Source: Sphaerolaimus hirsutus (taxonomy: Eukaryota; Nematoda; Chromadorea; Monhysterida; Sphaerolaimidae). From it: 64,000 nt of DNA. The notes under the pieces were generated by a model. It did no database searches, was not told where the DNA came from, and saw only the letters and a program-made list of their open reading frames with translations. The DNA is taken from the NCBI GenBank assembly GCA_964036195.1, contig OZ038451.1, forward strand, positions 19,170,318 to 19,234,317. The letters are read 5' to 3'. Numbering within the stretch: the stretch's first letter is position 1; every line of letters begins with the position of its first letter. Below are positions 2,385 through 63,520 of this stretch, one piece after another. A program made the translations under genes and the position numbers.

Positions 2385-5300
2385 GCTCTGATCCGGGAAG
2401 ATTGGAACCAACCAAAATCTATGACAAATATGCAGCTTTGAAAGAGGCAGCTGGGACCTCCGATGATACAGTAAGTTGTAGGCGGTCTTAAAATTATGTT
2501 GAAATTTATTGAAAAGGTCGAAAAAGAATTTTTTTGAAATTGTAAAAGATATTTTTTTAGTAAACATGAAATTTAAACTGTTCTTAATTTTTTTCCAATC
2601 ACACATGAAGAACAACCATTATCAATGCAATTTTTCGGCTGTCATTTCCTCTACAAACATTTCGGTAAATCTTATTAAGTCTGTCCCCATCCATGTGCTT
2701 TTTTAACAGTAGAAAAATTGATCAACAACCTACTCCAAATTAAAATACAAAGAACATATCAGTGTGTGGACATTTACCTCACCTGATAATTACGAATAAA
2801 TCTGATAATTGACCGCACCGTTTGGCGCCAATTGTTACCGCCAAATGTGAAAATCACCCATTGTCCGTACGGTTTCACACCTCATCAACAACCCCCCCCC
2901 AAACCCCCAGTCAGACAGCCTGGAATCGCACCTATCCGCTTGGAAGCGCGTCCTGGAAGCAGCCCAGTCCACGCTGCGCCACTGCACCGACCTCTTTCTC
3001 AAATCGTCCGACGCCAATGTGTGCCGCGCCGTGGTGCAGACCGAAAAGGGCGCTGGTTATATAAGCGCTATTGCTGAGGTTTACAGGGTCGCGTGTAGGA
3101 TTAAAGTCAGCCTGAAGACGACTAGTGAGTTTGGGGGATGAAGGGTTTGAGGCAGGGGTGTTCCTGATTTTGACCCTCTGGGTGTTGGATAGATAGCAAA
3201 GCACTCCTGCGGAGGGATAGATTAGGCAATTAGACCTGAATAAATAGGATAAATTAGGCAATAAATCACATGAACTAGTGATTTTGAAGTTGAAAACGGG
3301 CAATAAAATTTGCGATTTTAAGTAAAAATTGTAAGCAAAATGTCTCAAAAATCACTCCAGATAACTGGGCAATTGGGGGGGGGGGGTTAGGGGATAGATA
3401 GATAGCTGGCCGATTTTGGAGGGCGCCCCCCCCCCACCAGACCCCCCCCCATTGGAGACCCATGGCAAAAAAATAAAATATGTATTTTATGGTTTTTCGA
3501 CTCATTTTTTACGTTTAACTGAGGAATGCTGCCGCCACAGTATCTGAATACTTTTGTCAGTTTTGTGTAGAAATGTAAAATTAGAATCACTCTTCTATTG
3601 CAGCATTCCAAACGGATTTCCTGCTCGATTTGATGGGAAATATCGAGGACAGTTGGCAGACTATTGTCAACTGCACCGGCTGCCACCCGGCACTGGTTAG
3701 TGACATTAAAAGTTGAAAAAACCCTAATGGGGTTAGTCATCCTGAATGTGAGGAAACTGCTCGTAAATGTAGCAGAAACTGTACAGAAATTAGCGATTTC
3801 TGGTGGAAATTGGTGCATAATCTTTCAACGTCGGATCTACATATTTGTAGATTGCTGGACGATTTTTGGGGGGGGGAGAGTTTACCTAGTATGCAAAAAA
3901 TATACCTAAGCAGAGAGATATTTAGATCGCTGAAGGGTGACGACACCATTGGAGACCCGTGGGAACTGGAGTAATGGCAGTGTTGTTCAAATACTGGTAT
4001 TTTTGGAAAACGTAAATGTGAACACCTTTTCCAAATTAAAAGTATATATAGTAAAACGTAAGGTATTTTTAAAATAAACATTTAAAAATCTTCATCAGAC
4101 CTCTTACTTTATCGGCTTCCAATATCTGCCGGAAAAACCTTACAGCTCGTTTTGCTAAATAATGTAATTAGCCACTTGACATAAATCATGGCAAGTAGGG
4201 TTCAAACGGGATCCCGAATACCGAGTATTTCGGGATTTTGTGGTCCCGATCCCGAAACCTCAATCCCGATCCCGAAATTTGAAAAAGCCAATCCCGATCC
4301 CGAGATTTTGAAAATCCCAATCCCGATTAGGGTTCAAACAGGATTCCGATCCCGATCCCGGATCCCGTGAAATTCCGGGATTTACCAGTCCCGATCCCGA
4401 AACCCCAATCCCGATCCCGATCCCGGATCCCGTGAAATTCCGGGATTTACCAGTCCCGATCCCGAAACCCCAATCCCGATCCCGATCCCGAAATCTCAAA
4501 AATACCAATCCCGATCCCGAAAATTTTCAAATCCCGATCCCGATCCCGAGAAACTCCCAAGTCCGGGATCCCGATCCCGGAAAAATTAGTGGAAATTATA
4601 AAAAGTGAAATAATGACGTTTTGGCATGCAAAAAGTGGATGCAAACCCCCAGCGTCAATTTTATGCCACTTTTCTGGCACCCAACAGTGTTTTGAGGCCT
4701 TGATGAACAACTGTGAATGCCAGAAAAATGGCCAAAATCTCTATCCCTAGAACCCAATCCCGATCCCGGAAAAATGTCTATCCCAATCCCGATCCCGTGA
4801 CCCCAATCCCGGCCAATCCCGATCCCGATCCCGAAATCTCAAAAAACCAATCCCGATCCCGAAACCCCAATCCCGATCCCGATCCCGATCCCGAAATCTC
4901 AAAAAGTGAATCCCGATCCCGATCCCGAAAAGTCAATCCCGTTTGAACCCTAATCCCGATCCCGAAAAAAATGCCCCGATCCCGGAAAAATTCACAGCCA
5001 CAAAAGGTGCCAGAAATGGACCAATTTACCAATGGACCAATCGAAATTTAAAGGACCATTTTGTATGCAGTTTGCAAAATTTTCCCCACCTCCCTCTATA
5101 TCTCTGTTCCATGGGCATGGAAACCACTACAAATGAACTGGATACAGTGCCCATTACCATAGTTTAAGGTTAATACACATGCATATATGCCAACCCCGAT
5201 CTAGTGTGACCCCTATTCCGATCCCAATCCTGAAATCTTAGAAAGGCAATGACGATCCCGGTCCTGAAAAGTGAATCCCGTTTGAACCCTAATGACAAGT

Positions 5301-5557
5301 ATACACATTTTCAGCAATCAGTTTCGTCAGTCGATCTATCATCAGCTCTGGCCGCATCGAATTGCACCGATCCTGAGAATTTCTGCGGCATTTGTCTTCT
5401 CAGGGTTGAATTTTCCACCAAAGAACAAGGCACCGGTTTAAATTCTTGCAAAATTGAGTTTGCAGGTAGGAAATATCACGGGCAATGTGCCAATTTTTGG
5501 GTGAATAAGGTGAATCCTGTTTTGCCGTCATTGACGTTGCCAAGCAAACTTTTGTGA
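2385..5557 (+). CDS. SYNRG: Synergin gamma, 3' end (four last exons)
   Basis: Exons are 2385-2470, 2911-3124, 3604-3695 and 5315-5557, all GT-AG with phases that join. The first encodes a stretch containing IYDKYAALKEA. The second and third match the conserved C-terminal helical region of synergin gamma (SLESHLSAWKRVLEAAQ, then ISAIAEVYRVACRIK and LLDLMGNIEDSW). The last encodes a Cys/His module (FCGICLL, then YHGQCANFW) and ends LPSLTLPSKLL. In known animals this protein binds the AP-1 gamma appendage and works in clathrin traffic at the trans-Golgi network and endosomes. The 5' part, including any EH domain, is not seen; it lies upstream of the window or was missed. The introns hold a GAGGC MITE, a CAGGGG element and a hAT inserted in a hAT. 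The assignment rests on remembered family sequence, not on a search. Confidence 0.8.
3153..3474. mobile_element. CAGGGG-family hAT-like MITE, eroded copy
   Basis: It has the family's hallmarks: a left end of CAGGGGTG followed by TTTTGACCCTCTGGG, internal GATAGATAGCTGG and TCCGGAGGGATAGAT-like words, runs of G and C, and a right end GGAGACCC. The final bases are changed and I see no target duplication. It lies in a SYNRG intron. Intact relatives are at 10822-11304, 48252-48738 and 56986-57740. Confidence 0.6.
3978..4080. mobile_element. Left end of a CAGTGTTG hAT-type element
   Basis: It begins CAGTGTTGTTCAAATACTGG and continues with ACGTAAATG and AAACGTAAGG words. These resemble the ends of the TTACG-rich elements at 33897-34599 and 37889-39622. 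No matching right end or target duplication was found, so it is truncated. Confidence 0.5.
4196..5291. mobile_element. hAT MITE with GGATCCCG subterminal repeats (outer copy)
   Basis: The termini are TAGGGTTCAAACG and its inverted complement CGTTTGAACCCTA. Flanks are ATGGCAAG (4188-4195) and ATGACAAG (5292-5299), a 7-of-8 target duplication. The body is an array of CCCGATCCCGAAA-type words whose core CGGGATCCCG is palindromic. A second copy of the same family sits inside it. The right end lies 15 bases before the last SYNRG exon. Confidence 0.85.
4328..4952. mobile_element. hAT MITE nested in a relative (inner copy)
   Basis: It has the same termini (TAGGGTTCAAAC) and sits inside the outer copy's own array. 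It has a perfect 8-bp target duplication, ATCCCGAT, at 4320-4327 and 4953-4960. Between the two GGATCG arrays is about 170 bases of non-repeated sequence (around 4580-4750) that also occurs, reversed, in the copy at 9890-10456 and, degraded, near 21900. Confidence 0.9.
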
Positions 5558-5674
5558 ATTTAATTTTCTGCTTTGGATAATATTGACTTTTCGATGTCTA
5601 TATAAGATATTTTCTATTTTTCAATTTTTTTGATATCTTTCCGGATTCAAAGTGATATATATTTATAATATCTA

Positions 5675-6562
5675 CCGTATTTCCTCGAAATACTTCCCTC
5701 GAAATACCCCCCTCAAAATGGACACTGAGCTTAACCCCCCCCCTCGAAATACCCTCCCTCGAAATACCCCCCAAATTTACCGTATTTCCTCGAAATACCC
5801 CCCCCCTTGAAATACCCCCCCCCTCGTTTGACCCCCCCCCTCTCGAGACCACTATGAAACAATCACCCCCCCCCCTCGAAATACCCCCCCCCAAATTGAG
5901 TGTAAAGGGAACGTACATGACAATAACTGTAGTTTGTGTTCTGTGTACTGCAGAACACACGTTAAAACAATGTCGGTGTCACGTTAGAACAGTGTACATA
6001 CCATCTACATACTAATATTAGTCTACAGAACCTTATAAATGGCGGTTTTTGTTGCATTTTTCGACGTCTGCGTACGTTTCAGACGACAATTTCGTACTTG
6101 GTTTTCAAAATTTTTCTTGTGAAACAATAACGCCCCCCCTCGAAATACCCCCCCCCCTCGTTTAACCCCCCCCCTCTCGGGACCACTATGAAACAATCAC
6201 CCCCCGGGGGGTATTTCGAGGAAATACGGTAGTGTATAGAGAACGTAAATGACAATGGCTGCGGTTTGTCATCCGGGCAATGCAGAACACGTTAAAAACA
6301 ATGACTCTGTTATGTGAGAACAGTGATTATACGTCTACACACTTATACAAGTCTGTAGAGTCTTATAAATGTCGATTTTAGTTGCATTTTGCGACGTCTG
6401 CGTACGTTTCAGGCAACAATTTAGTACTGGGATTTCAAAAAATGTCTGGCGAAATAATAAACCCCCACTCGAAATACCCCACCCCCCTCGTTTAACCCAC
6501 TTCCCCTCAAAATTCTCACTCTGAAAAAATAAACCCCCTGGGTGTATTTCGAGGAAATACGG
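5675..6562. mobile_element. CCGTATT-terminus MITE, TA duplication (outer copy)
   Basis: The ends CCGTATTTCCTCGAAATAC and its complement are flanked by TA. The interior is full of CTCGAAATACCCCCC words and long C runs on the top strand. A second copy is inserted at 5780-6229. It lies downstream of SYNRG, between genes. This is the most abundant family in the window. Confidence 0.8.
5780..6229. mobile_element. CCGTATT-terminus MITE, inner copy
   Basis: The ends are the same and the element is flanked by TA at 5778-5779 and 6230-6231. The outer element reads AATTT-TA before it and TA-GTGTATAG after it. The copy at 38243-38684 shows the uninterrupted form AATTTAGTGTATAG. That empty site supports a 2-bp TA target duplication and a Tc1/mariner-like insertion mechanism. 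Confidence 0.85.
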
Positions 6563-6755
6563 TATATATTTAATGGCTACTTTTTGGTGTCTGCATTTGA
6601 CATTTCTTCAAAATTGTACATTTCGTTCCAAAAAGTTCTCGATCCCTTATCTTCGATACAATATAAATATCATCCGACCACTTTCATTTTTCATTTTTCT
6701 TCAGACACATTATTCATCATGATTCTTATAGTCGTTTTCCGTGGATAGGTGCTAC

Positions 6756-7563: not shown

Positions 7564-7592
7564 GTGCTTAAGGATCATACTAAACTAGCAGT

Positions 7593-7866: not shown

Positions 7867-8895
7867 TAGTGATGTAAAAAGCGCCAGACTTTTGGCGCCA
7901 AGCGCCAATGGCGCCACAGCAAAATAGCGCCAAGCGCCATGGCGCTTTTCTAGAACATGGCGCCAATAGCGCCAGCGCCAAAATTTTTTGCTGCCCAAAA
8001 GGCAGCCATGCTAATGCAGGTATTGGCTAGGTCCTGTCGGTTAGGTTTTGTAGTAGGTTATGTAGGCTAAGGGTGATGAGCACTGATGAGATCCTGGCAC
8101 CCGCCCCAAAATCATCCCGTCTGTTCGAAAGGGTCGAAATAGGGTTTTCTGTCTGGAGGTGCATGGGAGTGCACCATGGGGCAGTCCCAAGCCCTGTAAA
8201 GTGTAAAGTAACGTGTCAAATGTAAAGTCAAATGCAAAGTAAAGTGTCAATCAAAACAAAAAAGAAAAGATTTTATTACTGAACTTTGCATGACAATTGA
8301 CAGTTTACTTTGCATTTGACTTTACATTTGACACTTTACTCTACACTTTACAGGGCTTGGGACTGCCACCATGTGATTCTTCCAGACATCTTTTGGACAT
8401 CTATTTATTTACTTTGGGGCCTCTACAGTTTGAAGCATTCAGACATTTTACCATTGTATTTACCTTTTTATTCAACATCGACTTTATTTTCAACACGATG
8501 CAATACAATGCATTTGATCGTCACTCGACGGCTCGTGAGCACCATTTGAATTGGGATGGGAACCATTAGGCCCATTATTTGGGGAATTTTTTTTGAATAT
8601 CCTTGCAAAATAAGCAAGTGGAGGGTTTGTTCTTCCTGGAATACATGTGCAGTAACACATTCACTTGTGAAAATTCTGCACACGAGGTCTTTTAAGATAA
8701 AATAATGATCTATCTTTTGAACTCCTTGGTGCTTTTTTGGCGCTTTTTAAAATGCCAGCGCCAAGCGCCAATGGCGCCACGGCATCATAGCCCCAAGCGC
8801 CATGGCGCTTTTCCGTAGCACAGCGCCAAGCGCCAATGGCGCCACAGCAAAAAGGCGCCAAGCGCCAAAAGCGCCATGGCGCTTTTACATCACTA
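7867..8895. mobile_element. hAT MITE with GCGCCATGGCGC repeats (copy 1)
   Basis: The left end is TAGTGATGTAAAAAGCGCC and the right end its complement ...TTTTACATCACTA. It has a perfect 8-bp duplication, ACCATGGC (7859-7866 and 8896-8903). Both subterminal regions are packed with GGCGCCAAGCGCCA and GCGCCATGGCGC words; the core is palindromic. A CAGTCCC-terminus element has inserted inside it. No transposase is seen. Confidence 0.9.
8180..8366. mobile_element. CAGTCCCAAGCCCTGTAAAGTG inverted-repeat MITE
   Basis: The two ends, starting with CAGTCCCAAGCCCTGTAAAG, are near-perfect inverted repeats about 65 bases long, built of GTGTAAAGT and GTCAAATGTAAAG words. The flanks share CACCATG(G/T) (8172-8179 and 8367-8374). 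It is nested in the GCGCC hAT element. Relatives are at 57934-58094 and 63111-63282. Confidence 0.75.
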
Positions 8896-9026: not shown

Positions 9027-10599
9027 CCGTATTACCTCGAATTACCCCCCCCCCGCAAAATGGGCTGGGGACAGGGGGGGGGGTGGATTGTATACGGAGG
9101 CCGGTGAACGGGGGGGGGCGGCGCCCCACCCTAAAATTTTGCCCCTGTAGTAAGGGAATGGCGCCATGCGTAGGCGCGAAGCCATGGCGCTAGCGCTATT
9201 CGTAGGTGCGACGTGATGGCGCCACTGGCGTTGGTATTGGCGCCAAAACAGTTGTGTATGTCTGTATCTTAAGGCATATACAACGACATGAACAGAAATT
9301 TAAGTTTTTCAGTGGCTTTGTGGCTGCGGAGACTGGTCAGCCGACCGTATGTGTTGTGTGACGGAAAAATTCCTTCAAACTGACAAAATCGTCTTCTGGA
9401 AGTGCCATTTCTGGCATATTTTTCTGTCCGACCCGGGAAGGGGGGGGGGCGGCCGCCCCCCCCCCCCTTGCTACGTCCTTGGCTGGGGAAATAATGCCCC
9501 CCCCCTCGAAATACCCCCCTCCGGAATGATGTACATTATCTATGCAATGTAAATATAATCGGATGACATTACGCCGTACATTTTCCCGGAGGGAGCACTC
9601 CATCATGACGTGATCACTTTCGTCGCCATCATCATCTCTCGCCATCACGTCGTCTTCGTGACGTCATCACTTCGTCGTCAGCACGCCTTCCATAAGTGTT
9701 CGGTTGGCCGTCTGCCAGCCGATGACAACTCCTATCTGTTTGTAGAGTATCGTGTCTGCTAAGTATACATGATGTATTTAGTATTTACTGCTAATTTGCA
9801 TAGCAGCGACACAGACATAGTTTGTGTAGCTATCTACGTGTTTATGTACAAATATATCCTGTTTGGACACATTTATTACCTGTTTTGGGTAGGGTTCAAA
9901 CGGGATTGACTTTTCGGGATCGGGATCGGGATTCACTTTTTGAGATCTCGGGATCGGGATCGGGATTGGGGGATCGGGATTGGTTTTTTGAGATTTCGGG
10001 ATCGGGATCGGGATTGGCCGGGATTGGGGTCACGGGATCGGGATCGGGATTGGGATAGGCATTTTTCCGGGATCGGGATTGGGTTCTAGGGATAGATATT
10101 TTGGCCATTTTTCTGGCATTCACAGTTGTTCATAAAGGTCTCAAAACACTGTTGGATGCCAGAAAAGTGGCATAAAATTGACGCTGTGGGTTTGCATCCA
10201 CTTTTTTGCATGCAAAAACGTCATTATTTCACTTTTTATAATTTCCACTGATTTTTCCGAGATCGGGATCCCGGACTTGGGAGTTTCTCGGGATCGGGAT
10301 CGGGATTTGAAAACTTTCTGGATCGGGATCGGGATTGGTATTTTTGAGATTTCGGGATCGGGATCGGGATTGGGGTTTCGGGATCGGGATCGGGACTGGT
10401 AAATCCCGGAATTTCACGGGATCCGGGATGGGGATCGGGATCCCGTTTGAACCCTAGTTTTGGGTACGTAAATGCCTACTTTTTACTACGATCCTGGCGA
10501 AAATTTCTGACAAAAAAATAAAAAACCCTCGAATAAGCCACCCTCAAATTTTGCTGGCGAAATAATTAACCCCCATGGGGGTATTTCGAGGTAATACGG
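9027..10599. mobile_element. Long CCGTATT-terminus MITE carrying other insertions
   Basis: The ends CCGTATTACCTCGAATTACC and GGTATTTCGAGGTAATACGG are flanked by TA (9025-9026 and 10600-10601). Besides the usual C-rich CTCGAAATACCCCC words, it contains GCGCC-rich scraps near 9120-9240, a fragment similar to the GTCCCTGG-ended family near 9430-9490, and an intact hAT at 9890-10456. Confidence 0.75.
9890..10456. mobile_element. hAT MITE with GGATCG repeats (third copy)
   Basis: The termini are TAGGGTTCAAACG. The 8-bp duplication GTTTTGGG is perfect (9882-9889 and 10457-10464). It is essentially the inner 4328-4952 element in the opposite orientation, including the unique central sequence with TTTTGCATGC and TGGCATTCACAG. 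It is inserted in the CCGTATT element. Confidence 0.92.
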
Positions 10600-12212: not shown

Positions 12213-15200
12213 ATGGCAGAACAGTGCGACGGTTTTGGTGAAGTGACTGTAAATCTGTGGGATTTTCTAGTGATTGCAGTGTACTTTGTGGTCATTTTGG
12301 TGATAGGAATTTGGGTTAGTTCATAGAAATCCGTTTTTGTTTAGATGGGATTTTTGGTAAATAGCTTTGCAACCTGGGCCTGGTTTCATTTTGAGCCATG
12401 GGATACATGTAGGGTTCAAACGATATATCGTATCGGATATCGACCATTTTTTAATATCGAATATCGATATCGAAAATTTTGGAAAAATATCGAATATCGA
12501 TATCGAAAATTTTGAAAAAATATCGAATATCGAATATCGACTATATTTTCGATATATCGATCCTGTATAATGTCCTTAATTAAGTTATTATTATTGTTTT
12601 GAGATATTTGTGATTAATTTGATTTGCTTATAGTATCTAAGTTGATGAGTAAAAGTAAAGTATTTAATGTCATCTTTGTTGGAGTGCTTACTCCACATTT
12701 CTTGTATTTGGTTTGGCCACATACCTACTGAACTACCTACCTCAAATTTGAAGCCAGAAAATGCTGATATGCTGCTTTTTTGCAACATGACCTTAAACAA
12801 TTGGGTTATAAGTATGAATTGTAATATCAACCAATTTTTGTTTGTCTGATACAATTTGATTCATCATGTTTTTTCTTCAATTTTCTCATTCTGACCATTG
12901 TAAACCTTGTTAAAATCACCTGTACTTTTCAGTAAAGAGATAATCAACCATGTTTGCAACCATATGAAAATACAATATGCTGCTTGAAATGTGCCTTGCT
13001 ATACCAAAAGCTAAATATCGAATATCGAAATATCAATATCGAATATCGACCATTTTTTAGTATCGAATATCGATATCGAGGGTCCACATATCGTATCGAA
13101 TATCGATATCGAAAATTTTGAAAAAATATCGAATATCGATATCGAAAATTTTGAAAAAATATCGAATATCGATATCGAAAAGTGATATCGTTTGAACCCT
13201 AGATACATGTATGGATACATAGATTTCAAAGGAAACATAAAAATCTAACAAAAATATGGTCTACGAATATGTGTTGGGGCGGGGGGTTGTGACGTTTTTT
13301 ATGAGGTGACAAACTTCGAGTTGACAAATTCCATAGTTAGACTTCAGATTGTAAAGTAAATTATTTATACTTACGAAAATGCTTATAATTTGTGATTCAT
13401 TTATTTGCAAGTTATTTATTACGAGGTGTTCAATTAGCCGCACTACGCATTAAAAAGTATTTAGTTAGTGTATGGAAAAAAACAACGCAAAATGATAGCC
13501 CCCCAAAGAGACCCCTACATGTGAATGTGACCAAGTCATAGATTTGCATTTGTGATGATCCCTCATTTGTGTTTGCTGGAACTGTCGCCTTTGGGCACTA
13601 GAATATTTATAACCAACCAAGTCACCAAAATCCCCCCACCTTAAATACCCCCCCCCCCCCCCAACGTAGTCATCGCGCATGAGCAGTAATCGTTCCACAA
13701 TCTCTGGCTATTTCCTGGCGGGCAGGCACATGTTCTGGCTGCCAGTGGGCGCCAGCGTTTTCGCGTCCAACATCGGCTCGGAACATTTTGTCGGCTTGGC
13801 CGGCAGCGGCGCCGCCGCCGGATTGGGCGTGGCCGCGTTCGAGTTGAATGTGTGTTGTTGTGGGGGGGGGGGGGGGTTTGGGGGGGGTATTTTTGTGTTG
13901 CCGCGGCGTTATTATGTTTTTTTTGGGAGGTGTGGTGGCGCCGCGCCGAACGCGGCAGAGTTCTGACGCGATTAGTTATGGCAAATTAATCATCCCGCCC
14001 TGCAGTAGCAGAGTGGCGCCGCATAGTGGAATAGTGCCCCAGTTGTGTGCCGCACGACGGCAGGGGTCTCCAATGGTTCAATGTTTAGAGGGGGTCCCTA
14101 ATCGAATTGCATATTCCGATTTTTATGTTTTTATTCTTGTTTTTCAGCATTATTAACACTTCACTACAGGCCCTGATAATCCTGCAACTTCTCGGTTGGG
14201 TTTTCTTGCCCGTGTACATAGCAGCTGGTGTGCACACAATACCTGAATACATGGCCAAGAGATTCGGGGGACAAAGAATTCGCGTTTATTTGGCACTTTT
14301 GTCATTGGTTTTGTACATTTTTACGAAAGTTTCGGTTGGTTTGAATGGTGGACTTTTGCTTCATAGATGTTTTTTCATTTTTGGCGTAAAAGCTATCGTT
14401 TCTACAAACTTGACTAGGGCCAGCTAAAGTTGTCATTGCAAATGCAAACTTTGTATACACATTGCTTATAGTGCACCTTTGGAATGAAACCCATCAATTT
14501 TAGGTGAACATCTACAGTGGGTCAGTGTTCGTACGGGTGGCTCTCGGCTGGTCAATATGGCCTGCGGTTCTAGTGATTTTGTTTTTGACTGCCTTGTGCA
14601 CTGTGGCGGGAGGCTTGACTGCTGTGATTTACATGGACACATTCCAGTGCTTTTTAATGCTAGCTGGCGCCTGCGTGCTCTCTTTCATTGGTGGGCGTGG
14701 TTTGGGTGTTAAAAGTTACCTCAAAATTTAATCGCACATCAAAACATCCACTCGCAGCATTCATTAAAGTCGGTGGCTACTACGAATTGATACCAAAATA
14801 CATGGACGCACTTCCCGACAACTTCACCAGGGCGACATACATTGAATATTCGCGAAATGAAGTTAAAAGTGCCCTCGGAAAATACGGGGTGGCTCATTCT
14901 GAAATTGAAGAGAAATTTTGCGGAGTTCCCAGCGAGAAAGCGTTCAATTTGCTCAGGTGTGAAATTTGATTTGCCGGACATTTTTCGTGGGTGGCCAGAT
15001 TTTGTAACCGCAGTCATATAGATACTGCACGATACAATGTTATTGGTGGCCCACACACTAGTTGACACGTGTCAACTGGTCTGTGCCAACTCAGATCTCA
15101 GCTTCACGTGTCGCAGGAGCGATCTTCCAATGCACTTGCCGTAATATTTGTTATTCAACATTACGACATGTGCATTTGGAGATCACCCTGCGACACGTGA

Positions 15201-18200
15201 AGTCGAAATCTGAGTTCACACACATGTGTTAACTAGTGTGTGGGCCGCGATAAAACACTGTATCAAGCAGCGTATAATTCTTATCGGGCTGCCCTGGCTT
15301 ATAATCGGGCTGCCCGGGCTTATAATCGGGCTGCCCGAGATAAACGCGTCGGGTAAATTGAATTTTGCACTAGGGAACCTTCAGATAGCGATTATCCATG
15401 GCCCGGATTTCTTTTGGGGCAGACACCAGCCAGTATTTGGTATTGGGCTGCGGACCAGGTTATTTTTTGGGCCACTTTTGATTATACTGCTAGGCAATGT
15501 CAGTTGATGGTGGTAATGGTCTGAATAAACCCCTTCCCGGGTCGGACTAAAGAAATGCCAGAAATGGCACTTTTGTAAAGCGATTTTGTTGGCAGTTCGG
15601 AAAAAGCATTTCGGCGCGGCACAGTATGTTTCCTCCATACCTGTGGTTCAGGACAAAAACACTCAAAATCTGTCCCGTCGTCTTGCCTACAAATGGCGCC
15701 AGCGCCATGACCATATCCCGTAATATAGGTCACAATTTTAGGGGGGGGGGGCGCCCCCCCCCCTTCGCCGGGCTCCGTCCGAACACAATCCGCACTCCCC
15801 CGTTCAAAAATCCTAACTACGTCCCTGGCGTATACAATTTTTTTCACACATTGTTGTGGAAGGCGTAATGTAGTTAACGTTAGTGAAACGTTTGCGCAGA
15901 TGTTGGTACAGCGTACGTTGTCGGCACGTTCGCTGTCACACGCGCAGGGCGCCTGTTTGTTTGCGGGGCTGCTCAAAATCCTTCCCATGTTTGTGATCGT
16001 CTTGCCCGGCATGATCGCCAGGGTCTTTTACCCCAGTCAGTTTCGATATAATTTTTTTTTTAACGTAAAATTTAGAAAAAACACTTTTTGCTTAGAATGT
16101 TTCGATGGTAGTTTTTTTACAACGGCTGAAAAACAGAAATACACTACTAATAGCCATTCAAAACCACAATCAAATATAAACCACACAAAATCGGGTCAAA
16201 ATCAAAATCGTTCAATTCCAGACCTGCTCGCGTGCGAGGCCATTCCGGACAAGTGCGCCCAGTGCTGCGGCAACTCGGTCTCGTGCAGCAACTTCGCCTA
16301 CCCCCAGCTGGTAATGAAACTCATGCCTACCGGTAGGGTTCAAAGGGGGTCGGGATTAGGGGTCTGGGTAGGGTTCGAACGGGATCGTGACGATTGTCGA
16401 GATTATCTGCGTACCTGATGATTAGTGATGTAAAAGCCGCCTTGTAAAGCGCTAGCGCCAAAGAAAAAAGCGCCATGACGCCATTTACGCCTGTCGCCAT
16501 GGCGCATTTTACACCATAGTCCTGGCCAATGGCAGGATTTTTAAAAATCTCAATTCCGAAATTCCATTTCTGTTTGGGCCGCAGGAGAAGGACACAATGA
16601 CACTGCGCCCCGTCTAATGCCGAAATTCTTTCAAGTAAAAGAAATTAGTTAAGGTACTGATAATGCACGAGTTTTCATCCCTCACACGGAATCACATTTT
16701 GCACCGTGAATAACCACTTGGAATTTTTCCCGCGCAATTTACATTGAAATGTTCGCAGGCATGCGAGGCATCATGTTGGCTGGTATGCTGGCTGCTTTAA
16801 TGTCTGACCTCACGTCGATTTTCAACTCTTCGGCGACATTGTTTTCGTTGGACATTTGGCACAGGGCCAGGCCCAAAGCGGACAGCAGGGAGCTGCTCAT
16901 TGGTTGGTGAAATTTTTGTGGCCAGGGAAATCGGTTTCCCTGGGGTTATTCACTCGATCATCACTTATTCATTCAATTCTCTACAAAATACACCGAATGG
17001 CGTGCCCGTCGCTCTATATGTATTTATGTATTTATACCTATTTACCTAGATACATATCGGCGATTTTTGGCGCCAATGACATGACGTCATTCCGTCACTA
17101 TGTAAGTCAAATTTTAGGGGGGGGGGTGAACAGGGCTGAGTAAACAAACAGCCCCCCGCTCAAATCCTGGATATGTCTGTGGCTCCTGAGCTCCGGGTCT
17201 ACATGTACACCCGTTTACGTGCTCATCGGGTTTTGGCCCAAGGTCTCACTCAACTCACACATAATTTCACTCAACATAATTTCCCACAACCCCCTTCCCC
17301 CCTCAGTGGGCCGTGTGTGGGTCTTGGTTATGGTAATTGCCGCAGTTCTGTGGGTGCCCATTGTGGGCGAAAAGCAGGGCGGACAACTTTTCATTTACAT
17401 CCAGCATATCGCCGCCGATTTAGCCCCTCCCATCGCTGCCGTTTATTTGATGGCCATTTTGTGGAAGAGAACCAATGAGACCGTTGGTTGAGTTTTTTTG
17501 TGTGGCTCCTTTTTATGGTGTGAGATTATGACTAGGGATGAAAAAAACGTAAATGAACGTTGAAAAAACTTTTCCAGAAAAATCAGCTACCGTATATCCT
17601 CGAATAAGACCCCCGTTGAATAACTACCTCCCTTGAATAACTTCCATTAGGTCTTTTTCGAGGTGGAAACCTTTAAAACCCCCGGCCATCCCTACCCCCT
17701 GAACCCCTCCAGGGCGCATTCACTGGCCTAATGGTGGGCGCGATAATCGGCGTGGTGCGCATGTTGCTCGAGTTTACCTACCCCGCGCCCCAGTGCCCCA
17801 ACCCCGACCTGAGGCCCTTTGTGGTTCGGTTGCAGTACATGTATTTTGCACTGGTGCTTTTTGTGACCAGTGCCATTGTTACTGTGGTGGTTAGCCTTTT
17901 CACCGAGCCGGTGGAAAAGTGGAGGGTAGGTTTTGGGGAAGGGGTTCTTTCTTTTTTTTGGGGGGGGGGGGGTCTTAAGAATTGACTGAAAGCGTCTTGG
18001 AGCGAATTTTTCACTGAAATAATAGCGGCAAGAGTAGGGCTCGAATTCGACTCGACTCGACTTGTGACTCGAGGGTAAAATTGGGTGTCAACTCGATTCG
18101 ACTAACTGCTTTTGCCTGACTCGACTCGAAAAATTTGGCAAATTTCGAGCTAGGGTTCCCATTGAATAATGTCCAAAAATATTAACTTTGAGATAAATTT

Positions 18201-20113
18201 TTGCACTGATACAATTCTACATAATGAACACACACATAGTGATGTAAAAGCGCCATGGCCCTGGCGCCTGGCGCTAGCGCCAAAGCAAAAAGCGCCATGG
18301 CGCTTTCGGCGCTTGGCGCCTTTTTGCTGTGGCGCCATTGGCGCTTGGCGCTGTGCTACGGAAAAGCGCCATGGCGCTTTTGGCGCTTGGCGCTATGATG
18401 CCGTGGCGCCATTGGCGCTTGGCGCTAGCGTTTTATAAAGCGCCAAAAAAGTGGTTCAAAAAAATATATCATTTTTTTATGTAAAAATACCTTGTGTGCA
18501 TAATTTACATGAGTAAATGTGTTTAAGCGTATTCCAGGAAGAACAAATCTACGTACTTGCTTATCTTGTAAACCATTTCCGTGCAAGGATATCCAAAACT
18601 TTTCCGGAATAATGGGCCTAATGATTCCCATCTCAATTCAAAGCTTGCTCACGAGCCGACGAACGACGTTCAAATGCACGTTCGACGTATCTATAAAAAT
18701 CTAAGCATTTTTGCGAGATGGCTTGCCATTTTTACCGTATTTCTTTGAATGGAAAAGCGTCATTCTATTTTTTTCCAACTTTTTTACCTGGCATTCTATT
18801 GGAGGTGCCTTTTTATTGGAGGCTGCCACTCTATTTTTTCACCAATATTTTTCACACATTCTTCATTTGAACATAGTGTTTTTATGAAACATAAACAACA
18901 TTCCATATCACAGAATCAATTCAAACAAAACCAAATGTGAAAACAACCATGAATCTTCCAATTTCTACCTGCCGTTATATTGGGGGGTGCCATTTTATTG
19001 TTTTTGTGGGCACGCAAACGTGCTAAAACCTGCCGTTTTATTGTAGGTGTAGTTCTATCTATTGGAGGTATGCGATTCTATTAGAAGAAATACCCAACTC
19101 TCAGATGTAAAATAACATCAGATAAAGGAAAGTTAACTCGATTTGACTTATTTATATCTTGCTTCTCACACAAATATGTAACTAGCACTGCATTAGCATG
19201 GTTGCACTTTATGAGCAGCAAAATTTTTTGGCGCTGGCGCTATTGGCGCTTGGCGCCAACATCCTCTGGCGCCATTGGCGCTTGGCGCCATGGTCCAGAA
19301 AATCGCCATGGCGCTTTTGGCGCTTGGCGCTATTTTGCTGTGGCGCCATTGGTGCTTGGCGCTCGCATGCCAAAAGCGCCATGGCGCTTTTGGCGCTTGG
19401 CACCAAAAGTCTGGCGCTTTTTACATCACTACACACACACCATCCTCAACTAAATTGCCAAAAAAAAATTTGTCGACACACGTGACAGTGTCGACGCAGC
19501 TTTGATATTTTTTATCGACAACCTGTACTGATCATCGTTAATGAAATTTATCGTTTCCACTTTTCAGCTGATTCGCACCACATATTGGACGAGGAAAGAC
19601 CAGACAGAAAGACCGGATATATATGAATATGCCCACAACAATCCAAAGATTAATTCAAATATTCACAGTGGCAAAGAATCTACCGATAAAATGGAAATGG
19701 AGACTTTTCATTTTGATGTTTCTAGTGTGCCAATTGGAAATAAAGTTGAGAAAAGTGAGGATGGTAGGTTTCGGAGCGAGAAATGTAGATTTTTTATTTT
19801 GGTGGTTTTCAAAATTTTGAACCCATTCTCACAATCACACTTTTTAAACATTAAAATTTAAATGTTAATTTTTTCAGTTATCACTGTGAAACCCAGCTAT
19901 TTTACATCATTTTACTCATGGCTGTGCGGTTTGGAATCGATCGAAATGTCGGCGGATGCTGAAAATGCCATGTTGAAATCTGAAATGAAAATTTCTAAAT
20001 TGGAACAGGATCCGATGGCAAAAACGCTGCTTAATATTGGCTTGGTAGCAATAATTTCACTGGACATTTTTTTGTACGTGTTTTTCTCGACATACAGCCC
20101 AATTGAAGCTTGA
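12213..20113 (+). CDS. SLC5A: Sodium/glucose cotransporter family protein (SGLT-type SLC5A)
   Basis: Thirteen exons: 12213-12314, 13670-13849, 14170-14334, 14504-14690, 14758-14956, 15389-15458, 15900-16035, 16222-16332, 16759-16902, 17307-17482, 17713-17925, 19568-19763, 19878-20113. All are GT-AG, phases join, total 704 aa (human SGLT1 is 664). The sequence follows SGLT1 closely: [43 protein letters not shown] then IWYWAADQ, and [12 protein letters not shown]. The residues known to contact sugar in SGLT1 appear conserved: N and H in [12 protein letters not shown] in FELN, Y and W in WYW, K in LLKILPMF and Q in YIQHIAADL. This predicts a plasma-membrane Na+-coupled sugar transporter, with a last hydrophobic segment near the C terminus. 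The 70-base exon 6 is only in frame with the second AG at 15388. Which SLC5A paralogue it is cannot be settled here. Confidence 0.92.
12410..13201. mobile_element. hAT MITE with ATATCG subterminal repeats
   Basis: The terminus TAGGGTTCAAACG is the same as in the GGATCG elements, but here it is followed by arrays of ATATCGAATATCGATATCG. It has a perfect 8-bp duplication, GATACATG (12402-12409 and 13202-13209). The central part (about 12570-13010) is AT-rich and non-coding. It fills most of SLC5A intron 1. Confidence 0.93.
15048..15246. mobile_element. CACACTAGTTGACAC inverted-repeat MITE
   Basis: The two ends (GGCCCACACACTAGTTGACA) are inverted repeats about 85 bases long with a short central loop. 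Related pieces occur near 22008-22209, 32860-33080, 40110-40150 and 53507-53655. No clear target duplication could be seen. It lies in SLC5A intron 5. Confidence 0.65.
15283..15375. repeat. GGGCTGCCCGA repeat (copy a)
   Basis: Three near-tandem copies of TTATAATCGGGCTGCCC are followed by GAGATAAACGCGTCGGGTAA. CCCGA and TCGGG can pair around the ACGCG loop. Related copies lie at 30175, 31270 (inverted) and 31588. This one ends about 15 bases before SLC5A exon 6. Confidence 0.6.
15525..15827. mobile_element. GTCCCTG-ended hAT fragment in SLC5A intron 6
   Basis: The right end (ATCCTAACTACGTCCCTG), preceded by C- and G-run sequence, matches the inverted left end of the intact element at 34662-35107. 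The left boundary is not resolved. A GGCGCCAGCGCC scrap lies inside. Confidence 0.5.
16333..16520. mobile_element. Fragments of TAGGGTTC and TAGTGATG hAT elements
   Basis: Two TAGGGTTC ends (near 16333 and 16370), each followed by a GGGATCG-like word, are followed at 16428 by TAGTGATGTAAAAGC with GCGCC words and an end like TTTTACACCATA near 16518. I see no full pair of ends or duplication. They lie in SLC5A intron 8. Confidence 0.5.
17590..17700. mobile_element. Left end of a CCGTATATCCTCGAATAAG element
   Basis: It begins TACCGTATATCCTCGAATAAG and continues with TTGAATAACTACC words, like 37911 onward. No right end is present before SLC5A exon 11. Confidence 0.5.
18035..18152. mobile_element. 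Short TAGGGCTCGA element with GACTCGACTCG repeats
   Basis: The left end TAGGGCTCGAATTCG is followed by CGACTCGACTCGACTT; the right end is AATTTCGAGCTA. It looks like another member of the TAGGG-terminus group with its own palindromic word (TCGA), but no target duplication is visible. Confidence 0.5.
18237..19431. mobile_element. hAT MITE with GCGCC repeats (copy 2)
   Basis: Left TAGTGATGTAAAAGCGCCA, right TTTTTACATCACTA, perfect 8-bp duplication CACACACA (18229-18236 and 19432-19439; note the simple-repeat context). Subterminal GCGCCATGGCGC and TTGGCGCTTGGCGC words. A CCGTATTTCTT element is nested at about 18735-19094. It lies in SLC5A intron 11. Confidence 0.85.
18735..19094. mobile_element. 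CCGTATTTCTT element with GTTCTATTGGAGG repeats (copy 1)
   Basis: The left end CCGTATTTCTTTGAATGG follows TA. Inside are words such as CATTCTATTGGAGG and CTGCCGTTTTATTG. The right end CTATTAGAAGAAATACCC has lost the expected CGG. Better copies are at 40776-41456 and 60643-60993. Confidence 0.7.
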
Positions 20114-38958: not shown

Positions 38959-39363
38959 CCGTATTACCTCGAAATACCCCCAGGGGGTTTATTATTTCGC
39001 CAGCAAAATTTTAGGGGGGGGGGTGATTCGAGGGGGGGGGTCTATTATTTCGCCAGAAAATTTCGGAAATTCCCCATACTCAGACGTAGAAAAAACACAA
39101 TTACATGGATATATATGTGTTTATAGGCATTTATAACTGTATATACACAGTAACCCTTCTCTAACGTCACTTTATCATCAGTTTTAACGTGTGTTCTGCA
39201 TTGTACAGATCACAAACTGCGGTATTTGTCATGCACGTTATCTTTACACTCAACTTTAGGGGGGGTATTTCGAGGGGGGGTTTATTATTTCCTCAGCCGA
39301 ATTTTAGGGGGGGTATTTCGAGGGGGGGTTAATTCAAGGGGGGGTTAATTCGAGGTAATACGG
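38959..39363. mobile_element. CCGTATT-terminus MITE
   Basis: CCGTATTACCTCGAAATACC and TTAATTCGAGGTAATACGG, flanked by TA. Confidence 0.82.
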
Positions 39364-39712
39364 TAGCATACTATAGCTAGGCAAAAACACGTTAACTAGT
39401 GAATTTGATGGTGAAAAAGTTTGAAAATTAGTGATTTTGAATGAAAATTCGGGCAAAATTTAACAAAAATACTCACTTTCCGGGGACAATTTACTCACGT
39501 TTACTCATGAGTAAAAGTAAACAAAAAATACTTTACGTTTTCTGTACTCACCTGTGAGTAAAAAATAAATACTTTACGTTTACGTTTACTTTCGAACAAG
39601 TTCAGTACATTTAACAACTCTGCAGAAAAGCGCAATGGCAAGTCCTGTATCAAAAAATACATATCATACGCGCACGCATCATTTGAACGCGCCATGGCAA
39701 GTAAACACATCA

Positions 39713-40475: not shown

Positions 40476-40617
40476 CATGAAATTTTACTTTTACGTTTTT
40501 ACGCTTTCCTTGGTATTTTAAAATTACCTTACGTTTTAGTATTTATACTTTAAATTTGAAAAGGTATTTAGGTACGTTTACGTTTTCCAAAAATTTACCA
40601 GTATTTTAACAACACTG
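40476..40617. mobile_element. Right end of a TTACG hAT element
   Basis: TTTTTACGCTTTCCTTGG and TACGTTTACGTTTTCC words end in TATTTTAACAACACTG. No left end was found. It abuts a TAGTGGTGTAAAAGCGCC fragment at about 40624. Confidence 0.55.
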
Positions 40618-51000: not shown

Positions 51001-54000
51001 TTGTCGTCACACGCAGAATCGGACAGGACAACAAAGTGGTTGATATTTGATAATGAGGCCGATTTGTCGTCACAGACGTAAAATTTGCAATTTTCATTAA
51101 AAAAATGTCTGTGACAACACACATTTTTTGTCGTCACACGAAATCCGTGTAAACACGGCCTTATGATGTAAATAAATGTCCCTTAACAGCTCGCATACAA
51201 ATTCGGTACGCACAGAAACTCGGTACGCACATGGCATCCTGTGCGTAACGGGCCTGTGTGCGTGCCGAGTTTCTGTGCGTACAGCTACAGGCTCAGTGTA
51301 AGCCACCAGTGTTGGTAATGTGCTGATAATATTCAACACTTTTATCAACATCATTGCTATTAAGGTAAAATTAGTATGCAGATCAGGGTGATGTGCAAGA
51401 AACGTGGAACTGTGATGGATGTTTTTGGTGATTATCTGAGATCATGTTGTAATGCAGTGATTTTAATGTTGTTTTGAAATGTGCAGTAAGTGAGTTATGT
51501 GTTTAAAATTTCCCTATGTTTCATTACTAATCTGTAGTGGGCACATTACCTGTGTTCAACAGCAGTGTGCATGCAAAATGCGTCTTGTATTAACCACTTT
51601 TTGAGAAGGAGAGGCAGAATAATGAATTTGGTAGTGGGAGTAGTGACAGTAATGACAATATGGACTAGACTTATGATATCATAGCTAATGTTCGTTGGTG
51701 CTGGCACATTGCCAACACTGGTGGCTTACACTAGCCAACGTTTCACGATCACAACTTAAAGCAGCATTGAGCTAGAGCACCATTTGTACATCAGTACAAA
51801 ATGACCGAAATTGTAACCCCCACAGTTCCGCAGTGGGTGGAGCTAGAGGGGTGTAATTTTGGGTGAACTCTCAAAACACCTGGTTTATTAACGTGTTAAA
51901 ATTTTGTTACCGTAGCTTACCCCTAGCACGAATGGCAAGCACTGCCCGGGGACTTTTCAGCCCGACCATGTACATATCTATCTAGCTGTTTTTCTCCCCG
52001 TTTTTCCTTCTAAAGCTTGAAAAACCGTATATATTGAACACCTGCGAACCCGCCGTCAAAAAACAAAACAAGTATTCACATGATTAGTGATGGAATGGCG
52101 TCATTTGAGGGCGTCAAAAGAACGCCGCACCATGGCGTCTATATTTACTACTTTTGCTACTTGTGCACCGGTACATGGCCGTTTGATCCAGATTGATTCT
52201 TATTGCTTTCATACTCTTTACAAAACGAATGGTGTCCCTTATGAAAACCTTCCCGCTCAGGATCTGCCCGCCTCAATGCACAGAATGCGATCCCTAAAAT
52301 GGCTCGATTTGAAAGACAACCCCTTGGATACTGAATTGGCCCGTGCAGCGGGTCAATGTTTGGATGAGAAGCAGTGCAAAATTGCCGCGCAAAATGTGCT
52401 CAAATATTTGGCAAGTGTCCAAGCTAGGATTGATAGGGCTAAGAACAAGAAGGCTGAACAGCAGAAAGGTTGGCTTTTTGTTTGTGTTTAGAGTCAAACG
52501 GGATCCTGAATCCTGACATATTTAGGGATTTTGCAGCCCCGATCACGAAACTTCAATCCCGATCCCGAAAACTAAAAGACCAATCCCGATCCCGAAAAGT
52601 CATTCCCGTTTGAACCCTAGTTGTGTTCAGATGATCTGACATTAAGTTGATATCACTTCAATATAAATCAAGCTAAGTGAAAAACAGCAGAAATAAAAAC
52701 AAAAATTTCCAGCCGAAGCTGCAAAAGAGCGCGCTTTGGAAGAGGAGAAACGTCGCGAAGTTCAGGCGAAAAAACGACGCGAAAAAGAGCAGCGCAAAAA
52801 TGAAAATAGACAAAAATTCCAGGACGCTGAACGAAAAAGTCAAGTGAAAAGTGACAAAATGAATGGGTCACCCGCGGGCAAGTCGGATAAAAGTAGGGCA
52901 GCTAATAAAACGGGTGGCAGTAGGGCGGAATCTGTGAAGAGTCCTAGTGTTATTTTGAAATGTGAGTTAACTTTTTAGTACGTTTGTTTCCTTCCGTCGG
53001 CGTATTATCGTGCCACCTGTCGGTAGTTATTTAGCGGGGTCCGAACGCTTCACCTATCTTTTCCGAAACAAGATTTTTCGCTACTTCACCCTGAACCGCC
53101 CCCCGCACCCCAAATCGGAAAGCTATGTGGACATTTTTGAGAAATTTCACGCATTTTGACGATTCTCGTCGCAACACCCAATCCCGTTTCTGACGACAAA
53201 AAATCTGCAAATTAATGGTGTCAAGTAAAAACGCGATCTAGAAAACCCAGTCTCATTTGAACCCATCAGGTATCTATCTCAAGTCCAAAAATGCACTCAT
53301 TCTGTCAAAATTACCCCCCCCCCCAACCCTCAGGCTGCAAGCTGCTCTTCCAGCTGTTGTATTTCGTGTTCATCATGGGGGTGTGCGCCATTTTGGTAAC
53401 CGCGGCGGCGTTCTACAGCAACTGCACCATGGGCCACAAGTGGATACCGAAAAGCGAGCCGCTCTGCAGGGACTTTTTCTCCTGGTTTGTTGGGTTTACG
53501 TCCCAAACGCACTAGTTGACATTGCGAATTCGTGCCAACTGAATGTCAACTAAAAATGAAATTTTTTAAGGCATCACACTATGCTGTATCACATAGGAGA
53601 GTTTTACTCACATAATAAACCAAATTTTTGTTGAATTTGATGTGTGTGGGCGTTTTCTGACTGTTTTTATTTCCCTTTTGAAAAGTGTTTCGGTTATTTT
53701 CATTTCGCCGTTGAAGAGTGTGACTAGCAAATTTCATTTCCCCATTGAAGAGGGGTTCTAATCATTTTCATAAGGGTTCTTATCCTTCTTATCTAAGGAG
53801 CAGCCATATTTACGCCCCCGTTAAAATGTCCCGTTTGTATTGATGGAACGGCGCAATATTGCCATTTGCGCGAAGGGCGGCTGTATATTGATAAGCGTAA
53901 GCTCATAATACAGGCAATTATGACACCGAGCACCTTATTGAGTATGCAAATACGTTTGAAGCGCGTACGTCCGTGAAAAACGTCTTCTGTGACTAGGGTT

Positions 54001-55594
54001 GGAAAAAAAACGTTTTTTTTAACTCGATGTTTAAAAAAAAAAAAAACGTTTTTTAAAAAAAAAAAACGTTTTTTTTTTAAAGCTCCCAGATATGACCTAG
54101 TGTCAACATATATAGGTATATCAGACACTGGCAATACTCTGTGATGTTAAATATGACCATATAATGGCTGTGGAGGCATGGGATAGCATTATAAGTGGTG
54201 ATTTGTGTCAAAAATATCCATTTTTCGTCGACATATCGTTCGTATATCGCCTTATAGTCAAATGTTCGTGACTTCAGGTAAAGTTTGGCACAGAATGGTG
54301 ATCAAACAAGGTTATAAAAGGAGGTTGTTACTTTGGGAGTGAAGTTACACACTGTGGAGGTACATGGAAGCACATTACCTCAATATTATATATTACAGCA
54401 ACATATGTCGGCTTATTCACCCATGGTAGCACATAGAAATGGATGTTTTGATACTAAAAATGCAACAAAACCAATGAAAACAACCACCAATGTCAATTTG
54501 TGTGTGAAATTGCGCGCATGCGCGCAAAAATTTTGCAAAATACCTAGTGCTTAGTACTTAAAATTTTGGCCGATGTTTTTTTAAAAAAAAAACATTTCGG
54601 ACGTCATGTTTAAAAAAAAAAAAAACGTTAAAAAAAAAACATCGGCCAACCCTATCTGTGACGTGTGAGGAATATTAGGAATATGACGCAATGAGGAAAT
54701 GAGGAATATGACGCAGATTCCAATCGCAAATTACGCAAGCACAAAATCAGCATATAAAACTGATATTCCTGTTCCCGTAACAAGTGTTCATCCCCTGTCC
54801 TTCATTCAATCAGCCAGAGGTCTTTTCATTATTCCACCCATTTCACCCACCCAAACATCGACTCCGCCCCCTTTCAGGGCATCCACGGGTGAAACTCCGC
54901 CCACAGTGCGACTGCACGCGCAAATGACGCTGAGCGCTTCAGCAGAAGCTATTCGCTCGTTGGCCGCCAATGCTACCAAACACGATTATGCAGCGGCGGC
55001 GGGAAATTTGTATGAGGCTGGAAGAAGGTTGACAGTGAAAACTTGGGATAGAAGTGTGGTGTTGGTGAGTTTTTTTGGGGTTGGATTATGGTGGATTTGA
55101 ATAAGTGGGATCAATTATGCGAGTGGATAAGTGACGGGAAGAGTGGTGAATACAGTTACCGTGGTAAATAAGTCAAGTGACATGTATACTGATAGCAAAA
55201 TGTGTAAATGAAAATCCACGTCAATTATTAATTTCATTGTCCCTTGACGCTCAAGACGTTTTCTCACTTGTCCACTTGCTCAACACGCGATGCTTCTATC
55301 TCCAAATTCAACTTGAAGCTGGCATGTTGCCAACATCCCCCACTTTTTCAGTATCACGAGCGCATATCCCCAGCAATGTCAAATGCAACTGTGATTGCCA
55401 GGGAGTACGCACTTGTAGCTGGACATTATTTGACCGTGGGCCTGGATTATGCCATCGGTTTCGCAGTAATAGGATTTCACTGGCTTATTGGTTTGTTTCG
55501 GATTTGGGACTGGTTTTGTGGAAAAACGCCAGAAAAATGGCGCCGTGGCGCCACAAATTATTCGGCGCCATTATATACTGTAAGGCGGCTGTAA
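48041..55594 (+). CDS. LRRC59: Leucine-rich repeat protein 59 (ribosome-associated ER protein)
   Basis: Exons 48041-48151, 49197-49391, 52261-52468, 52713-52961, 53334-53484, 54878-55064 and 55352-55594 join in phase, 447 aa. Exons 1-3 match human LRRC59 almost block by block: [39 protein letters not shown], then [12 protein letters not shown] and CLDEKQCK. Exon 4 is a K/R/E-rich coiled coil ([15 protein letters not shown]). Exon 5 has the single membrane segment ([19 protein letters not shown]). LRRC59 is an ER-anchored protein with cytosolic LRRs that binds ribosomes and helps nuclear import of FGF1. The human luminal tail is about 40 residues; here exons 5-7 add about 170, and exon 7 has a further hydrophobic stretch ([16 protein letters not shown]). 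A donor-like ACT-GTAAGG near the stop could splice on to sequence at 55827, so the 3' end is uncertain. Confidence 0.88.
48252..48738. mobile_element. CAGGGGTCTC-family hAT MITE
   Basis: Left CAGGGGTCTCCTAGGGGG, right TTGGAGACCCCTG, perfect 8-bp duplication TCCTAGAT (48244-48251 and 48739-48746). CAGCTATCTATCTATCC words, C runs and TCCGGAGGAGCGATTTGC inside. LRRC59 intron 1. Confidence 0.92.
50172..51970. mobile_element. Long-TIR mariner-like element, TA duplication
   Basis: The ends CATGGTCGGGCTGAAAAGTC are inverted repeats that continue for about 245 bases on each side. TA flanks both (50170-50171 and 51971-51972). Almost nothing but TIR remains once the hAT at 50417-51295 is removed. LRRC59 intron 2. 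Confidence 0.85.
50417..51295. mobile_element. ACGCACA-repeat element with 8-bp TSD
   Basis: Flanked by a perfect GTGTAAGC (50409-50416 and 51296-51303). The other TIR arm of the host (GGCTTACACTAGCC near 51721) confirms the empty site. Subterminal words are TTACGCACA, CGTTACGCACAGG and their inverses. Terminal repeats are weak (GGCCAGGCTCA and TGAGCCTGTAG). A further inverted pair (TTTACACGGATTTC, 50737 and 51137) suggests yet another insertion within. Confidence 0.75.
52489..52619. mobile_element. Short GGATCCCG-type hAT copy in LRRC59 intron 3
   Basis: TAGAGTCAAACGGGATCC at the left, CCGTTTGAACCCTA at the right, flanks TTTGTGTT and GTTGTGTT (7 of 8). At 131 bp it has only the arrays and no unique centre. 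It starts 20 bases after the exon 3 donor. Confidence 0.82.
53507..53655. mobile_element. GCACTAGTTGACATT inverted-repeat element
   Basis: AAACGCACTAGTTGACATTG at the left and GATGTGTGTGGGCGTTTTC at the right. It belongs to the GTCAAC family. LRRC59 intron 5. Confidence 0.5.
53994..54654. mobile_element. hAT MITE with AAAACGTTTT repeats
   Basis: Left TAGGGTTGGAAAAAAAACG, right CATCGGCCAACCCTA, perfect 8-bp duplication TCTGTGAC (53986-53993 and 54655-54662). Both ends have A- and T-runs around ACGT. The centre (54090-54560) is unique. LRRC59 intron 5. Confidence 0.93.
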
Positions 55595-63110: not shown

Positions 63111-63282
63111 TACAAGCCTTGTAAAGTGTAAAATCAAGTGTCAAATGTCATGTATTTAAAATATCAATCAAAAAATAAATTTTATTACTGTACTATGCAT
63201 GTCAATTGACACTTGGCATGTCGGACAAATTTGTTTGACATTTCTCGTGGCGACATTACACTTTACAGGGCTTGTGACTGGC
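63111..63282. mobile_element. CAAGCCCTGTAAAGTG inverted-repeat MITE (third copy)
   Basis: CAAGCCTTGTAAAGTGTAAA at the left and TACACTTTACAGGGCTTG at the right, with GTCAAATGTCATG words; the same family as 8180-8366. Confidence 0.65.
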
Positions 63283-63297
63283 ACTAGGACCTCCCAC

Positions 63298-63520
63298 TAG
63301 TGATGTTAAAGGCACCGGGGAAAATGGCACCGCACCGCACCGGCACCTTTGCCAACGCATGAAAAGGGCACCTGGCACCCTGGGGCACCGGCCAGAAAAT
63401 GGCACCGCACCGCACCGGCACCAGTGCCTTTTGGAAAAAATGGCACCAGCACCGAAGGGCACCGGCGGGTTGCCGGTGCTAGCACCGAAAGGCACCGCAC
63501 CGGGCTGGAATTTCTGAAGT
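63298..63520. mobile_element. TAGTGATG hAT end with GGCACC repeats
   Basis: The left terminus TAGTGATGTTAAAGGCACC is that of the GCGCC elements, but the array is GGCACCGCACCGGCACC. No right end is found before the window ends, so it is either truncated or continues beyond. Confidence 0.6.

Follow-up and report, generated by a model that had tools for sequence, protein, structure and literature searches.

Sister hAT-like elements with a common tip and a probably exchanged subterminal word in a nematode contig

We analysed a 64-kb window of the nematode Sphaerolaimus hirsutus (contig OZ038451.1, positions 19,170,318 to 19,234,317), which defines the scope of all results below; positions count from its first base. 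The window holds elements that resemble hAT transposons and are apparently all non-autonomous as far as the scanned open reading frames (ORFs) reveal, with arrays of a short repeated word beside their tips (Table 1). Two of these, families A and B, share a common tip, common spacers once the words are masked, and similar word positions, and the word is wholly exchanged between them; these data support the pairing. We consider it probable that A and B descend from one ancestor, and that the word, a putative site for a BED zinc finger, was exchanged while the scaffold was largely kept. The pattern is real and ordered, and lies inside a known transposon class. The good case is A/B; G is a partial case, and C/D a weak one.

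Over 13 bases the A and B tips are identical, as are the right tips of G1 and G2, and C and D agree at 12. The remaining between-family pairs agree at 5-10 of 13 (with the G1 left tip grouped with its family), and the A-G tips match those of the elements labelled H and I at 5-8. Measured against A, the E and F tips reach 9, those of C, D and G 6-7 (G 6), and those of H and I 6. From these letters the E and F tips seem somewhat nearer to A than unrelated tips, yet they stay far from 13, a distance that would not demonstrate close kinship. An earlier note on this DNA had claimed that nearly identical tips are followed by different words. This is borne out by A/B, partly by G and weakly by C/D, and does not extend to E and F (9/13) or G (6/13) against A; the note's list combines sister pairs and tips of no more than moderate similarity. 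The tips and words that it named were found at or near the positions given, with corrections at four places. At 52489 the 13-mer is present at the 3' tip, the 5' tip reading TAGAGTCAAACG; the tip at 4328 carries one mismatch; the end at 7867 is in place, with the palindrome at the opposite end of C1, 8895; and the element at 37889, which has TTTACG at its 3' end, has a tip reading CATAGTTG and is interrupted by another insertion.

The words are mostly uniform within an element or family. The A elements hold 92 copies of ATCCCG and no ATATCG, and B holds 36 ATATCG and no ATCCCG; the C elements hold 120 GCGCC and 9 GCACC, and D 19 GCACC and no GCGCC. For 15 of the 17 elements or ends, none of 200 dinucleotide shuffles gave a count as high as that of the commonest 6-mer of the arms; the exceptions are H1 (count 5, shuffle maximum 8) and I (both 6). 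The top 6-mer of G2, ATTCAA, is by our reading part of its nested insert. Most words had been described as palindromic, a statement that does not hold for ATCCCG, ATATCG, GCGTAA or GGCACC: the palindromes come from two words placed head to head.

To compare scaffolds independently of the words, each word was replaced by one symbol and the remainder aligned, with shuffles of the spacer bases and of the spacer order as nulls. Against B, the number of base shuffles out of 500 that reached the real score was 5, 4, 0 and 3 for A1-A4 at the right end, and 0, 107 and 11 for A1-A3 at the left end (the A4 left end lay outside the test); the A-B spacers thus exceed base shuffles in six of seven end comparisons. 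An all-pair control of like ends, with the same base shuffle, comprised 55 right and 36 left pairs, of which 46 and 30, respectively, join different families. At the right ends, all four A-B pairs fall in the top five of the between-family pairs, with A4-C2 ranking among them. At the left ends, A1-B comes first between families with z of about 5, similar to the within-family pair A1-A2, followed by A3-B in fourth place and A2-B in eighth. Word positions are also alike: of the 12 right-end words of B, 11 have an A2 word at most 2 bp away (31 of 5000 permutations) and 9 have an A3 word so close (246 of 5000). At the left end, A1, A3 and B all have words at bases 12 and 16, where A2 and A4 are altered. 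The strongest evidence is the A1-B left end, and the right ends give moderate support. The all-pair control left our weighting of the readings unchanged.

In family G, blastn aligns 143 bp of the right end of G1 with an end at 40617 (81% identity). Five G1 words lie opposite this end, and as we read the alignment it has A instead of G as first base in three, a decayed word in one and an unchanged word in one; word exchange in G is thus incomplete. C and D have no convincing common spacers beyond the tip and first word position (276, 250 and 102 of 1000; 16-55 of 500), and we rejected them as a third pair on a common scaffold, which the word-masked spacer tests leave unsupported. The proposal that related elements diversified mainly in the recognition word therefore survives for A/B, in part for G1 and its relatives, where most words are changed, and weakly for C/D. 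Two short stretches recur across families: ACTTTACAGGGCTTG is common to the flank of D (63258-63275) and the interior of C1 (7867-8895), and the spacer GACTTTT is common to A and C right ends, which is suggestive only (1/1000 in two pairings and 195/1000 in a third).

The layout of the ends resembles that of Hermes, a hAT element of the house fly. Hermes is reported to have an inverted pair next to its left tip, with base 19 at the centre, and cleavage suffers when this pair is moved by one base; its further repeats run antisense at the left end and sense at the right end (PMC10368747). Here, two head-to-head words stand beside one tip in A1, A3, B, C1-C3, E and G1, centred on base 16.5 in A1, A3 and B, 18.5 in E, and 19.5 in C and G1; in B the left pair matches at 6/6 (shuffle P 0.005, unadjusted). 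The pair is confined to one tip in A1, A3, B, C1-C3 and E, is altered in A2 and A4, and is missing from H and I; in G1 the right end also scores 5/6. The weight lies in different words recurring near one position, as the end-by-end statistics are modest. Polarity is similar to that of Hermes too, with sense/antisense counts (right, then left) of 41/0 and 8/38 in A, 16/4 and 4/12 in B, 41/14 and 24/40 in C, and 7/0 and 2/6 in G1. Hermes differs in its word, AAGT/AAGC, against CGGGAT, CGATAT, GCGCC and others here, and the present elements have dense arrays and arms that are direct copies. Thus the tips are inverted, yet the inner arms match in direct orientation, with longest exact direct/inverted matches (bp) of 51/11 in B, 38/9 in A2, 33/9 in A3, 10/6 in A1, 30/16 in C1, 30/23 in C2, 31/19 in C3, 24/14 in E and 22/11 in G1; there is little or no excess in H1 (15/11), H2 (11/10) and I (13/14). 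These direct copies include spacers as well as words, and a changed word could therefore spread from one arm to the other.

Most probably, the word and the finger change in concert, with geometry held by transposase assembly. The subterminal words would serve as binding sites for the BED zinc finger of the transposase, in a Hermes-style layout that keeps a left end with a head-to-head pair beside the tip and most other words on one strand. Between the common ancestor and the present A and B, every word copy would have changed, with tip, spacers and word positions largely retained. The transposase finger may have changed first, and under this pressure the new word could have been rewritten across both arms by duplication and template switching during gap repair that used the direct-copy arms. 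Judging by the pattern, block copying within and between arms would spread the new word and preserve its polarity. Further, we tentatively entertain the possibility that the window holds parallel hAT systems acting as separate addresses, with a fixed geometry and an exchangeable half-site word, where copying between arms rewrites an element and families split by specificity while keeping their tips; the G relative at 40617 would then be an intermediate in such a transition.

Known systems offer partial parallels. Subterminal motifs are reported to be used by Ac, Herves, Kat1 and Hermes. Maize Ac/Ds is reported to have 8-bp duplications, 11-bp tips, non-autonomous derivatives with unrelated interiors, and a transposase that binds subterminal hexamers over about 200 bp (PMC3260210); it has one family word, AAACGG, whereas here the words differ between elements with the same tip. 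Herves and Kat1 likewise have a short subterminal motif and two ends that are unlike in binding or polarity, although their words differ from those described here. Precedent for diverse word specificity comes from the CGGBP/hAT DNA-binding domains: hAT BED-type domains are reported to prefer diverse 8-mers (CGG, GCGC and AT-rich), and the motifs of four hAT proteins to match subterminal regions of their transposons (Yellan et al. 2021; PMC8097297). That study measured proteins of many species, and the sections of it used here describe no word exchange on a common end. Among the literature titles and abstract openings searched, none describes word exchange on a common hAT tip. Outside the hAT class, piggyBac-like miniature inverted-repeat transposable elements have been reported (PMC2872659).

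Several observations weigh against descent of A and B from one ancestor with an exchanged word. The left end of A2 is not above chance against B (107/500), and the spacer-order shuffle is weaker throughout, reaching the real score in 11, 37, 28 and 10 of 500 at the right ends and 1, 186 and 3 at the left. In the all-pair control A4-C2, A2-G1, C3-G1 and B-E stand at z 2.2-2.8, and in a 75-bp version (17 pairs) A2-C1 and A2-C2 (1/1000) and B-G1 (7/1000) do better than A2-B (10/1000) and A3-B (24/1000). No blastn match links A to B; B is a single copy, and D a single end, in the window. In the end layout, without adjustment, the palindrome test reaches P<0.05 at 5 ends out of 40; G1_3, H2_3 and other ends also reach 5/6 pairs; A2 and A4 have no pair at 16.5 in their left ends; the left/right names of C, E and G1 depend partly on the palindrome itself; and words of one polarity alone already favour direct arm matches. 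The end at 40617 holds both G words. Finally, neither 107 of the 240 window ORFs of at least 75 aa (composition-filtered) nor 8 chosen ORFs, partly overlapping the 107, contain a transposase or BED domain; a zinc finger that reads the word is therefore inferred rather than observed, and so would be any escape from cross-mobilisation.

Some of these points would also be expected if the families were independent old hAT lineages, each with its own array, whose tips are alike through the common hAT pattern (YAGNGNTNNNAAA in the window). The missing A-B blastn match, the unrelated pairs that also score in the word-masked test, the unconvincing C/D spacers, and the tips of E, F, G, H and I, which match A at only 6-9/13, all agree with this explanation. 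We nevertheless regard it as unlikely for A and B, whose tips are identical and whose common spacers and word positions lead the between-family comparisons, and it sits poorly with the long G1 alignment. Less probable again is that a single transposase moves all families via the common tip, the words having no role in specificity. Some maize Ds1 elements are reported to be mobile without the AAACGG word (PMC3260210), and Hermes can reportedly be moved by hobo (PMC3517528), a case of cross-reaction between related hAT systems; yet words that are uniform within A and within B, and unmixed, are unexpected if they are irrelevant. Neutral tandem turnover by slippage and conversion, with no part in transposase recognition, would account for the direct copies between arms and for exact local duplications in the arrays (2.2 copies of 65 bp at 4346-4490, 2.7 copies of 33 bp at 13094-13181), and is the least probable, given an inverted pair at near-equal distance from the tip despite different words, and Ac, Herves and Hermes transposases that are reported to bind subterminal words.

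Joint change of a transposase and its scattered sites requires change at every site, which makes it hard to study. Elements that keep tips and layout, and differ in the word that the enzyme probably reads, are natural material on target change. The sister elements, with the same tips, similar spacers and an exchanged word, together with the mixed-word end, would form matched pairs for tests of binding and cross-mobilisation, and the direct-copy arms point to a concrete route of word change.

Elements were detected by a scan for a perfect 8-bp duplication and an 11-bp tip with at most 2 mismatches, spaced by 100-6000 bp. It returned 53 raw matches, against 0-4 in each of 20 shuffled windows, and 12 are clean elements with a perfect 8-bp target-site duplication: those so marked in Table 1, 10822-11304, 34662-35107 and 48252-48738. 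Matches at 866, 8257 and 41202 resemble chance, and the remainder lie inside word arrays or a satellite near 25000. Three further elements have 7/8 duplications (4196-5291, 52489-52619 and 56986-57740), a tally that replaces the 14 perfect duplications counted previously; the single ends D and F lay outside this test. A null of offset flanks was dropped in favour of sequence shuffles, since the arrays repeat themselves (118 matches over 10 offsets against 18 real). The short terminal inverted repeats start with YAG, except at the 5' tip of G2, which starts with CATAG, and subterminal repeats occur near both ends of A, B, C and G1 by count, and of E with pooled arms. The ends at 18035 and 63298 have no partner within 6 kb or before the window end; for other single ends the sole plausible partner pair is a decayed C pair at 59512-59758 with a 6/8 duplication. 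The window ORFs match the Pfam families Phosphodiest, Ras, SSF, PRA1 and Ets, and judging by these genes the window is eukaryotic and animal-like.

Table 1. hAT-like elements and ends in the window (TSD, target-site duplication; TIR, terminal inverted repeat)
Element	Description	Position	Strand	Observations
A1	hAT-like, word ATCCCG, interrupted by A2	4196..5291	+	TSD 7/8, TIR 12/12; without A2, 13 ATCCCG, 0 ATATCG
A2	ATCCCG element nested in A1 array	4328..4952	+	perfect TSD; 40 ATCCCG; duplication ATCCCGAT includes the word; empty site matches A array
A3	ATCCCG element	9890..10456	-	perfect TSD; 34 ATCCCG; right-type end 9890, left-type end 10456
A4	131-bp ATCCCG element	52489..52619	+	TSD 7/8; 5 ATCCCG
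B	A tip, word ATATCG (36 copies)	12410..13201	+	perfect TSD; word-masked alignment to A
B left pair	inverted word pair CGATATATCG	12421..12430	+	tip bases 12-21, centre 16.5
C1	TAGTGATG tip, word GCGCC	7867..8895	-	perfect TSD; 29 GCGCC
C2	TAGTGATG tip, word GCGCC	18237..19431	+	perfect TSD; 43 GCGCC
C3	TAGTGATG tip, word GCGCC	28714..29923	+	perfect TSD; 48 GCGCC
D	single end, TAGTGATGTTAAA tip and GCACC array	63298..63520	-	18 sense, 1 antisense; right-type by polarity
E	TAGGGTTGG tip, AAAACGTTTT words	53994..54654	+	perfect TSD; left palindrome 6/6 at 18.5
F	single end, TAGGGCTCGA tip and GACTCGACTCG words	18035..18160	+	
G1	CAGAGTTG tip, word GCGTAA	33897..34599	+	perfect TSD; 15 GCGTAA, 0 ACGTAA
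G2	CATAGTTG/CAGAGTTG tips, nested foreign insertion	37889..39622	+	perfect TSD; 5 ACGTAA, 1 GCGTAA
G1 relative	right-end relative, mixed words	40483..40617	-	3 ACGTAA, 1 GCGTAA
G1 relative	right-end relative with ACGTAA	3978..4076	+	alignment; blastn 76% over 106 bp

The hAT arrays may be preferred targets for insertion. Among 15 insertion sites examined, that of A2 in the A1 array scores higher than all of 300 background sites (0/300 as high), and the empty sites of G2 (0.013) and, weakly, of C1 (0.053) match a C-type right array. Other elements lie alongside. Those at 10822-11304, 48252-48738 and 56986-57740 form a CAGGGGTCTC family; they have 8-bp duplications, one of them at 7/8, together with C/G runs and GATAGATAGC repeats, and lack the array layout of A-G. 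The CAGGG-CGTATCCAGG element at 34662-35107 has a perfect duplication and an interior stretch that resembles the C array (28-54 bp blastn matches). C-rich CCCCCCTCGAAATA-like repeats at 5683-6564, 37939-39355 and 43303-43342, in places with inverted tips of TACCGTATT type by eye and nested in G2, are perhaps another transposon family.

A role for methylation, suggested by CpG in every word, was dropped: G2, H2 and H3 are exceptions, and the observed/expected CpG ratio of the window is 0.906. The top 6-mer contains CG in 14 of 17 elements or ends, under a filter that favoured CG words. Scans of viral contigs for tip and words returned 96 and 4 stretches, from which no inference was taken; the 96 are near chance by our rough estimate, 9 of them having two words within 220 bp of the tip, none more than two, and these 9 look like one conserved sequence, while the 4 look like two coding sequences. 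Repeats resembling the words also occur elsewhere in the window. A 59-bp satellite of about 16 copies at 24988-26078 contains ATGGCGCC words resembling those of C; a TTACGCACA-like repeat cluster at 50429-50526 contains GCGTAA, with no hAT tip noticed alongside; and 17-bp tandem repeats at 32254-32294 and 32535-32591 carry CATGACTAGCGGGTTCA and its near complement.

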